From Natronomonas salina (GTDB lineage: Archaea > Halobacteriota > Halobacteria > Halobacteriales > Haloarculaceae), in assembly GCF_013391105.1 (NCBI RefSeq), contig NZ_CP058335.1:2542001-2606000 (forward strand): a DNA stretch of 64,000 bases, read 5' to 3'. Positions 36,699-39,303 of the stretch are shown here, in pieces. The notes beneath the pieces were generated by a model. It saw nothing but the letters and a program-made list of their open reading frames with translations. It ran no database searches and was not told the DNA's origin. The translations under genes and the position numbers were made by a program. Position 1 is the stretch's first letter, and every line of letters begins with the position of its first letter.

Positions 36699-36726
36699 CC
36701 TGGAGGGTTCGGTCTGCTGTCCTTGT

Positions 36727-37575
36727 TTACGCCCGGTCCTCGGGCGTCGGCGCGAACGTCCGCTTGTGTCCGGTCGCCTCGTAGTAGTCGAGTATCCGGT
36801 CGATAGCGTCCGGATCGGCGTCGAGTTCGGCCCGGACCGCCGGGCGGCCGAGGCCGGCCTCGACGTGGAGGGCCAGCACCGCGTCGATGACCTCGTAGGA
36901 GGCTCCCAGGTCGCGCTCGTCGGTCTGGCCGGGCCAGAACCCCGCCGTCGGCGGCTTCTCGACGACGAACTCGGGGACGTCGAGTTCCTCGGCCAGCTCG
37001 ACGACCTCGGTCTTGTAACGGTCGCCGAGCGGCAGCAGGTCCGCGGCGCCGTCGCCGTACTTCGTGAAGTACCCCAGCAGCAGCTCGCTGCGGTTCGTCG
37101 TGCCGGCGACGAGCCGCCCCGAGTCGTTGGCCACCAGGTACGCCAGCGCCATCCGGAGCCGGGCGACGAGGTTGCCCCGGAGGACCGGGTCGCCGTGGAG
37201 GTCGACGCACGACGGCGCGACGTCGGCCAGCTGGGCCAGCAGCGGCTGGACCTGCAGGGTATCGTAGTCGATGCCGAGCACGTCGGCGACGGCCTCGGCG
37301 TCGCGGGCCCCCGCACCGCCGAGTTTGCTGCTCGGGAGGACGAGACCGTAGACCGAGTCGGCCCCCAGCGCCTCGACCGCGAGCGTCACCGTGACCGACG
37401 AGTCGAGGCCGCCACTGAGGTTGACCACGACGCCGTCGGCGTCCGCTCGGTCGACGTAGTCGGCGACGAACGACGTGATCCGCTCGCCGGCGGCCGACGG
37501 ATCTACGGTCTCGTTGGGCGGGTGGGCGGGCGATTCTCCGGAATCCGGCGGGCTACCCGACGCGCCGCCGCTCAT
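36727..37575 (-). CDS. nadE: NAD+ synthetase, copy 1
   Basis: A 282-residue NH3-dependent NAD synthetase. The ATP pyrophosphatase motif S-G-G-L-D-S-S is at 54-60, and Y-F-T-K-Y-G-D-G, K-T-E-V and K-P-P-T-A-G-F-W-P-G-Q-T-D-E follow. There is no glutaminase domain. It amidates nicotinic acid adenine dinucleotide. The gene starts 28 bases after a second nadE-like gene, apparently in one operon. Both copies keep the core motifs. The N-terminus up to residue 28 is Pro/Ser-rich and less conserved. Confidence 0.9.
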   Translation of the reverse strand: MSGGASGSPPDSGESPAHPPNETVDPSAAGERITSFVADYVDRADADGVVVNLSGGLDSSVTVTLAVEALGADSVYGLVLPSSKLGGAGARDAEAVADVLGIDYDTLQVQPLLAQLADVAPSCVDLHGDPVLRGNLVARLRMALAYLVANDSGRLVAGTTNRSELLLGYFTKYGDGAADLLPLGDRYKTEVVELAEELDVPEFVVEKPPTAGFWPGQTDERDLGASYEVIDAVLALHVEAGLGRPAVRAELDADPDAIDRILDYYEATGHKRTFAPTPEDRA

Positions 37576-37603
37576 CGCTGCCCTCGATGTCGCGACCACA
37601 TCG

Positions 37604-38509
37604 TCAGCTGAAGTGCGTCCCGGGCGTCGGCGGGACGTCGCGTTTGTGCGCGGCCGCGCGGTACATCTCCTCGAACTCGGCGACGAGTTCTGGGTCGAGG
37701 CCGAGCTCCGCGGCCGTCCGCTCGACACTGCAGCCCTCGTCGACCAGCTTCCGGAGGACCGCGTCGATGGTCTCGTAGGGAGCGCCCAGTTCGTCGGCGT
37801 CGGTCTGGCCCGCCCAGAGTCCGGCGGTGGGCTGCTTCTCGACGATGTCCTCGGGGACGCCCAGGTGTCGGGCGAGCCGCCGGACCTCCGTCTTGTAGAG
37901 GTCGCCCAGCGGCAGGAGGTCGACGCCGCCGTCGCCGTACTTGGTGAAGTAGCCCAGCGACAGTTCGGTCCGGTTGCCGGTGCCGAGGACCAGGCGGTCT
38001 CGGAGGTTCGCCTCGAAGTACGTCGCCATCATCCGGGCGCGGGCGGTGGCGTTGCCGACGGCCTCGGTGTAGCCGTCGCGGTCCTCGATCGGATCGCAGA
38101 GCTGCACCGCCTCGCCGGACCCGAAGGACAGCGCCGCCATCTTCCGAAACCAGTACTCCTGCTCCATCGTGTCGGTGAGCGCGTCGACGACGGGCTGGAC
38201 GTCGACAGTCCGGAAGCTGATCCCCAGCTCGAAGGCGACGTCCTGGGCGTCCGTGATGTTCGACTCGTCGCTCGCGTCCGCCGGGATGACGAGCCCGTAC
38301 ACCGAGTCGGCCCCCAGGGCCTCGACGGCGACCGAGGCGGCCGTGGTCGAGTCGATGCCGCCGCTCAGCGCGACGACGACGCCGTCGGCGCCCGCGTCCT
38401 TGACGACCGATCTGACGAAGGCGGTGCACTCCTGCTCCATCGTCTCGACGTCCGTGCGGAACGTGTCCGGCTCCTGTACGACACCGCGGTCCAGTTCTTT
38501 GATCGACAT
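37604..38509 (-). CDS. nadE: NAD+ synthetase, copy 2 (divergent paralogue)
   Basis: A 301-residue paralogue of the next gene downstream. S-G-G-I-D-S-T is at 49-55, and G-Y-F-T-K-Y-G-D-G and K-Q-P-T-A-G-L-W-A-G-Q-T-D-A are intact. It has a different middle (E-Q-E-Y-W-F-R-K-M-A-A-L-S-F-G), suggesting different substrate or partner contacts. Two NAD synthetases in tandem could reflect salt-dependent isoforms or a related amidase-like role; no evidence separates these. A small zinc-finger gene precedes it. Confidence 0.87.
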   Translation of the reverse strand: MSIKELDRGVVQEPDTFRTDVETMEQECTAFVRSVVKDAGADGVVVALSGGIDSTTAASVAVEALGADSVYGLVIPADASDESNITDAQDVAFELGISFRTVDVQPVVDALTDTMEQEYWFRKMAALSFGSGEAVQLCDPIEDRDGYTEAVGNATARARMMATYFEANLRDRLVLGTGNRTELSLGYFTKYGDGGVDLLPLGDLYKTEVRRLARHLGVPEDIVEKQPTAGLWAGQTDADELGAPYETIDAVLRKLVDEGCSVERTAAELGLDPELVAEFEEMYRAAAHKRDVPPTPGTHFS

Positions 38510-38547
38510 GTATTGTAGCTCGTGCGGCGACCGATTCGCCGCGGGTT

Positions 38548-38670
38548 TCACTCGCAGACGATGCAGCTCGATTCGGCCCGTTCCGTATCCCAGGTGAGCG
38601 CTCCTTCGTGGCAGCGGGGACAGGGCGCGAAGCTCGCTGAACGAACGTACGATGGTTGTTTTGCGTCCAT
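38548..38670 (-). CDS. 40-residue zinc-finger microprotein
   Basis: A short frame with C-P-R-C-H (17-21) and C-I-V-C (36-39), giving a full C4 zinc finger in 40 residues. It lies 38 bases before the nadE pair and behind a good TATA box (38696-38701), so it probably leads the operon transcript. Haloarchaeal genomes carry many such zinc-finger microproteins, some involved in biofilm or stress; function here unknown. Confidence 0.6.
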   Translation of the reverse strand: MDAKQPSYVRSASFAPCPRCHEGALTWDTERAESSCIVCE

Positions 38671-38694
38671 ACTCAACAGACAACTACTGATGTG

Positions 38695-38944
38695 GCATAA
38701 ATCTTCGCGAAGTAGAATATAGAACAGTATAAGGAGTATGGGTGTTCAAGAAATAGTGGAAATAGGTAGGGAATGGAATTTCTACCACCTCCCGTCGCGA
38801 GATCCTCTTGACCTGTAGGGAGAGGCGTTCTGAAGGACGCCCCTTCGAGATTTACGTGATGGATGAATGGAGCATCACGATATGGGTTAGAACCTGAACG
38901 TACACCTAAAATCGAATTAGGTGCATGATAGCGAAGATTTATGC
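38695..38944. repeat. AT-rich segment bounded by a perfect 14-bp inverted repeat
   Basis: GCATAAATCTTCGC (38695-38708) recurs inverted at 38931-38944. Each copy holds a TATA-like element facing outward: the left copy serves the zinc-finger/nadE genes, the right copy would fire rightwards. The 222 bases between are clearly lower in GC than all neighbours and have hairpins (38824-38841 and CACCTAA/TTAGGTG at 38903-38923). No gene is seen in it. It may be a MITE-like element or a duplicated promoter. Confidence 0.6.
38696..38701 (-). promoter_or_regulatory. TATA box of the zinc-finger/nadE operon
   Basis: TTTATG on the minus strand about 29 bases before the ATG at 38670; leaderless spacing. The same sequence context is copied in inverted orientation at 38931-38944. 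Confidence 0.5.
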
Positions 38945-38970
38945 GCTAACGGTGAACAGATGGGGATGCA

Positions 38971-39209
38971 ATGTTCGCAGGATACTCGAAGCGCGTCGGT
39001 CCAGCCCCCGACGCGTCTCGTCGCGACGCTTCAGGTGGGTTCGCGCGACGGCTTCCTGTCGAAGCACCGAGCGGACACCGGAGGTGGAAGAGGATGCTGT
39101 GAACGCCGCTCCGGTTCGCTCTGGCACCTGCCATCTTACGATGTCGGTCCTGGCTGGACTCCGGTCCAGCGTTCCTGCCACACGCCCGCCCCGAATCCCG
39201 GGGCGGGCG
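38971..39209 (+). ncRNA. Candidate structured RNA (or short 43-codon gene) downstream of the right promoter copy
   Basis: This is part of a 660-base stretch without a convincing gene. From the outward TATA at 38936-38943, transcription would begin near 38967. Downstream come two tight hairpins: GCTGGAC/GTCCAGC (39153-39170, 4-base loop) and an 11-bp perfect stem CGCCCGCCCCG/CGGGGCGGGCG with a 5-base loop (39183-39209). A 43-codon frame starts at 38971 with leaderless spacing, but its codon use is not convincing. Tentative. Confidence 0.25.
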
Positions 39210-39296
39210 GCTCCGTTCTGCAGTCGTCGTCGCGTCCCGCTGCTCGTCCCCGAGTCCGTCCCACACGCCACATCGAGATCGAATTCCGTCCGACGG

Positions 39297-39303
39297 TTTT
39301 TAG
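39297..39303 (+). promoter_or_regulatory. TATA-like box of the MinD-like gene
   Basis: TTTTTAG about 31 bases before the ATG at 39331; leaderless spacing. Confidence 0.45.

Follow-up and report, generated by a model that had tools for sequence, protein, structure and literature searches.

In Halobacterium salinarum, an intergenic inverted repeat overlaps the promoters of the two divergent genes brz and brp, and regulation of brz through this repeat was proposed by the authors of that work (PMC2253796). By analogy, brz-brp is the closest precedent for the locus considered here, an AT-rich island within a 64,000-nucleotide stretch of the Natronomonas salina genome (hereafter the window), in that brz, which leads bop, is a small CPxCG zinc-finger gene leading a metabolic gene, with a repeat lying over divergent promoters (PMC2253796). 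The two loci differ in the repeat, which is imperfect at brz-brp and perfect in the window, and in the divergent partner: brp is no relative of brz, whereas the partner in the window is a Cys-less unit and both units share one promoter family.

Haloarchaea hold dozens of zinc-finger micro-proteins, the roles of which are mostly obscure. In Haloferax volcanii, 49 CPxCG zinc-finger members have been predicted, and of the zinc sites predicted for HVO_2753 one proved to be metal-free (PMC11241148, PMC6562870). The left unit of our locus resembles these genes in consisting of a small ORF with two CPxC/CxxC knuckles, whereas the right unit differs from them in having no cysteine at all; the available text of the two reports describes neither a shared promoter family nor Cys-less transcript relatives for the H. 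volcanii genes (PMC11241148, PMC6562870). As far as the available part of its description goes, haloarchaeal sRNA132 (PMC6560208) is comparable to our right unit in being short, intergenic and transcribed from a promoter of its own, although the transcript in the window is only predicted and, unlike sRNA132, is apparently linked to a zinc-finger gene family. A BRE of the form 'CGAAA', a TATA motif 'TTWT' and a 72% share of leaderless transcripts are established in H. volcanii (PMC4983044).

Results

The inverted repeat and its AT-rich interior

The 14-mer GCATAAATCTTCGC is found at 38695-38708 and recurs as an exact inverted copy at 38931-38944, as the initial annotation had reported. These are the only two exact copies in the whole 3.75-Mb genome, which holds one further copy with a single mismatch. 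The low GC content ascribed to the interior was borne out: the spacer between the arms (38709..38930, no strand assigned) has a GC content of 46%, whereas the window averages 71%, and the island is the lowest-GC 200 bp, and the most AT-rich region, of the window. The interior hairpins noted earlier are also present, with folding z-scores for the 250-nt island of -4.3 (plus strand) and -5.6 (minus strand), both of which include arm-to-arm pairing. The middle of the spacer is not conserved, and its alignment to the homologous locus of a second genome of the genus (G004) is no better than that of shuffled sequences.

It should be noted that the length of the repeat is by itself weak evidence, because 0.86 perfect 14-bp inverted repeats with 60-300 bp spacing are expected per shuffled window; several others are present in the actual window. 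Shuffling at the local AT-rich composition produced such a repeat in 0 of 5000 trials. What counts is the position of the repeat on two core promoters.

Core promoters at the two arms

The left arm (38695..38708, minus strand) is an exact copy of the 14-mer and contains a BRE (CGAAG) and a TATA box (ATTTAT), placed 24 nt upstream of the zinc-finger ATG at 38670, in agreement with the earlier assignment of this box to the zinc-finger/nadE genes. The right arm (38931..38944, plus strand) carries the same BRE and TATA elements as a predicted rightward promoter; it faces outward, and its distance of 26 nt to the ATG at 38971 is, as had been noted, comparable to the leaderless spacing on the left. 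The BRE and TATA box of both arms match the H. volcanii motifs (PMC4983044).

A promoter family was defined in the present analysis from 11 units, which align almost without gaps from position -40 of the TATA box through the start codon (alignment A5), and the consensus of which reads CCTAATAC-N-GTATTAGG, 18 nt, TTTAT, about 28 nt, and the start GTGTAATGTNCGCAAG. Model and motif definitions were adjusted with the data already in view, although they were checked by leave-one-out and out-of-training tests. In a leave-one-out position weight matrix (PWM) scan the left arm was the top match, and no other of the 127,914 window positions scored as high as the two arms, which kept this rank when they themselves were left unscored and only the 28 nt upstream of them contributed. 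Both arms display the upstream element, BRE, TATA box and start codon in register. On the left, the upstream element CCTTATACTGTTCTATA (38718..38734, minus strand) lies 18 nt upstream of TTTAT, and 14 of 15 nt are conserved in G004. Its counterpart on the right, CCTAAAATCGAATTAGG (38905..38921, plus strand), was located through the near-gapless 11-unit alignment; it is more degenerate than the left element, matches the L162 and Z318b promoters and is also one of the interior hairpins. Across 20 genomes of the genus there are three instances of ATACWGTTNTA-N17-19-TTTAT, namely at the left promoter in the window and at both promoters of a divergent pair in G004, while reversed-pattern controls gave 0 occurrences.

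A promoter-only model (R3) was then searched against 146 genomes of the family. The right arm scored 70 bits (E = 3.1e-19), a value to be read with the arm being a training member of R3, and 21 newly recovered loci outside the training set were examined. A small CxxC...CxxC ORF follows directly on the promoter at 9 of these 21 loci, against 27 of 1200 control positions (2%), and for this reason the family, judged from sequence, is the promoter of haloarchaeal 40-50-aa zinc-finger micro-protein genes. Units of the family were also seen in tandem (L157:1430-1923 in G318, and L171 in G415), a zinc-finger gene there being followed within about 300-400 bp by a unit with a similar promoter.

Divergent promoters or a mobile element

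The initial annotation had left three options for the island: a MITE, a solo remnant of a mobile element, or a two-headed promoter with the nadE group on one side and an unannotated transcript on the other. By comparison between loci the last is strongly supported, on the strength of the G004 layout, the PWM scan and the 11-unit alignment, whereas the first two did not stand. MITEs have been reviewed for prokaryotes (PMC10969869) and reported for a haloarchaeon (PMC3119063), and the island resembles them in being short, AT-rich and bounded by inverted repeats, yet it differs from them in having neither copies nor a target duplication and in having promoter cores as its ends.

A remnant with 14-bp terminal inverted repeats would account for the perfect repeats, the AT-rich interior and the small size, and the larger block around the island is an insertion relative to three relatives. 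Against this, the 250-bp segment is single-copy in its own genome; plasmids, phages and 392 genomes of the order yielded no relatives of the island, and searching the order at the DNA level with 38690-39300 as query brought up nothing beyond short, weak, GC-rich matches outside the island. The flanks (...CTGATGTG and GCTAACGG...) share no target-site duplication. The homologous G004 locus carries not an empty site but a spacer of similar size, the two ends of which are not copies of each other, so that the perfect repeat is not kept. We therefore rejected the MITE or solo-remnant reading, which we consider very unlikely. No more credence is due to an invertible promoter switch, in which the arms would be recombination sites flipping the 222-bp core: perfect inverted repeats do surround a promoter-bearing segment, but the arms are core promoters of a kind shared by a large family, G004 lacks the perfect repeat, and no recombinase was found among the neighbouring ORFs that were looked at in the annotated flanks.

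The 14-bp inverted repeat is thus best described, on sequence comparison, as the BRE/TATA core of two related promoters and not as a transposon end, and the island is very probably the intergenic region between head-to-head units served by one zinc-finger micro-gene promoter family.

The left unit and its genomic setting

The first gene of the left unit (38548..38670, minus strand) encodes a zinc-finger micro-protein of 40 aa with a CPxC...CxxC arrangement; as a protein of <70 aa with two Cys knuckles (MDAKQPSYVRSASFAPCPRCHEGALTWDTERAESSCIVCE) it conforms to the CPxCG type. Its match to Pfam Zn_Ribbon_TF (E = 3.9e-4) is below the curated cutoff, and homologues were found in 20 of 392 genomes. 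Two NAD+ synthase genes follow on the same strand, nadE2 (37604..38509; Pfam PF02540, E = 3.9e-75; NCBIfam NAD+ synthase) and nadE1 (36727..37575; PF02540, E = 4.2e-69). That the left arm drives this leftward zinc finger-nadE2-nadE1 operon is strongly supported by its predicted promoter elements.

The whole block of nadE1, nadE2, zinc-finger gene, island and right unit spans 2.6 kb (36699..39285, no strand assigned) and, with its two tandem NAD+ synthase genes, lies between gcvT and minD. The block is absent in three relatives of the genus, in which gcvT is directly followed by minD or vice versa, about 50-70 bp apart; the locus as a whole has therefore been gained, lost in those relatives, or moved. 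Nothing implicates the repeats as agents of this, and no direct repeats of at least 9 nt were found at the edges of the block. No nadE2 relatives were found in the scanned genome contigs and viral contigs. A second nadE2-nadE1 pair lies elsewhere in the same genome (L044:3831-5607, at 1.744 Mb), beside urease accessory-like genes. Its nadE2 has about 90% DNA identity to that of the window over 807 nt while the surroundings differ, which suggests a recent duplication or gene conversion.

The right unit

Rightward of the island lies a 43-codon leaderless-type ORF (MFAGYSKRV...KRML; 38971..39102, plus strand), of which the start block TGTTCGCAG and the stop codon are conserved. It contains no cysteine and hence lacks the two knuckles of the CPxCG type. 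A protein-family search with it gave no match, its similarity to zinc-finger proteins is not significant (z = 1.8), and no nucleotide similarity was detected between the left zinc-finger coding sequence and the right unit (z = 0). We nevertheless infer a zinc-finger origin because the promoter and the 3' tail match those of zinc-finger units, and presumably the ORF either is what remains of a zinc-finger micro-ORF or belongs to a small RNA.

The zinc-finger-nadE2 locus of G004 has the same divergent layout as the window, and its right unit is homologous (local alignment score 186.5 against a shuffle maximum of 104). The two right units are 55% identical overall, compared with 49% at nadE2 fourfold sites, whereas three blocks of 9-13 nt (TGTTCGCAG, GGAGGTGGAA and CTCTGGCACCTGC) are perfectly kept; outside these blocks the unit diverges nearly at the neutral rate. 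The second block, GGAGGTGGAA (39080..39089, plus strand), and the third, CTCTGGCACCTGC (39119..39131, plus strand), which follows the stop codon, are identical in G004 and recur with one substitution each in L044, as GGAGGTGTAA and CTCTGGTACCTGC, and the spacing between them is 29-30 nt in the window, G004 and L044. In zinc-finger units of G002 and G016 the 3' block takes the form CTCTGGCA(A)TCTGCC. As a specificity control, the combination GGAGGTGNAA...CTCTGGNACCTGC, present at all three nadE2 loci examined, gave only two matches in about 257 Gb of other genomes, both in unrelated bacteria.

Further downstream lies a stem-loop with a UNCG-type loop (GCTGGAC-UCCG-GUCCAGC; 39153..39170, plus strand); in L162, a copy elsewhere in the same genome, an A-U pair has become G-C by compensatory change (GCTGGGC-TCCG-GCCCAGC). 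Folding gave, beyond it, a strong, terminator-like hairpin (GCCCGCCCCG-AATCC-CGGGGCGGGC; 39184..39208, plus strand), which is likely the 3' end of the right transcript. Hairpins occur at the matching place in G004 and in zinc-finger units; consensus folding of three units yielded few compensatory pairs, and Rfam searches over the window, also at permissive cut-offs, returned nothing real.

Could the right promoter make a genuine leaderless 43-aa protein of new function rather than an RNA? Start and stop codons are in frame in the window, G004 and L162 despite indels, with ORFs of 43, 42 and 40 codons, respectively. On the other hand, no amino-acid conservation is seen among these three ORFs, the best conserved block falls after the stop codon and the L044 copy stops at 37 codons, so that a protein product appears improbable to us.

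Related units at other loci

Two more right-like units are located in the same genome, at 1,743,132 (L044), upstream of the nadE2 paralogue, and at 1,859,698 (L162). Searches with a two-sequence model of the right unit (R1) and with its five-sequence successor (R2) led to these two and, in G002, G003 and G016, to zinc-finger genes whose 3' tail is similar. Beside a gene that we take to encode an M29-type aminopeptidase-like protein, four genomes (G002, G003, G016 and G409) have the unit as a zinc-finger gene, whereas in five others (G000, G005, G008, G318 and G416) its ORF is devoid of the finger. The loci observed with this aminopeptidase-like flank are L113, L114, L089, L181, L162, L157, L170, L173 and L175. 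Zinc-finger relics are visible in the Cys-less units L170 (z = 5.8) and L173 (z = 4.4). Because the finger is thus kept or lost at one syntenic locus and has left relics in L170 and L173, the simplest history that these sequences suggest is one in which zinc-finger units lose the protein and keep the transcription unit.

These relics also speak for a rival view of the right unit as a mere pseudogene, the decaying copy of an old head-to-head duplication with a promoter not yet lost, and the nearly neutral divergence of most of the unit and the frame-disrupting indels between the window and G004 point in that direction too. Between species whose neutral divergence is saturated, however, the promoter, start block and 3' blocks are conserved; independent Cys-less units keep them as well, and a 3' hairpin has undergone a compensatory change. 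We regard decay as a serious contender, if somewhat short of an even chance; it concerns the right transcript only, and the two-promoter reading of the repeat holds under it as well.

Discussion

Two points go beyond the initial annotation: both arms belong, on the present comparison, to one zinc-finger-gene promoter family, and the right unit is a Cys-less unit with conserved 5' and 3' blocks. Most likely the two units form a co-regulated head-to-head pair, and the right transcript would be either a decaying gene or a small RNA. Since both cores carry an upstream element 18 nt further out, a single DNA-binding regulator acting on both elements probably controls both units, and the CCTAATACNGTATTAGG element is a candidate site for it. 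Both promoters would be active: leftward, two NAD+ synthase genes would be expressed behind a leaderless zinc-finger gene, and rightward a leaderless transcript of about 240 nt, from 38970 to about 39210. This transcript is predicted to keep the start block, stop codon, 3' block, UNCG hairpin and terminator-like hairpin, with a small ORF devoid of a zinc finger, and we infer that it may be no decaying gene but an RNA with a regulatory or dual function. More tentatively, and at less than an even chance, haloarchaeal zinc-finger micro-genes may repeatedly become finger-less transcripts in which the regulated promoter, start block, stop and 3' element persist, in which case the product of the family could be partly RNA, with a coding and a non-coding member paired here over NAD synthesis genes.

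The locus and its relatives provide a shared promoter signature for one zinc-finger micro-protein family, and loci at the same position that keep or lose the finger make it testable whether protein, RNA or regulated promoter is under selection. The locus also illustrates that, where an archaeal genome is compact, perfectly matched inverted repeats can be a pair of promoters and not a transposon. Of the units encountered, one in G016 (L160:1501-1685) is a partial zinc-finger unit copy comprising the second half of the ORF and the 3' tail; it adjoins a tyrosine-recombinase-like ORF (L160:140-1210), an arrangement that looks as though the unit's 3' end had been used as a site of integration.
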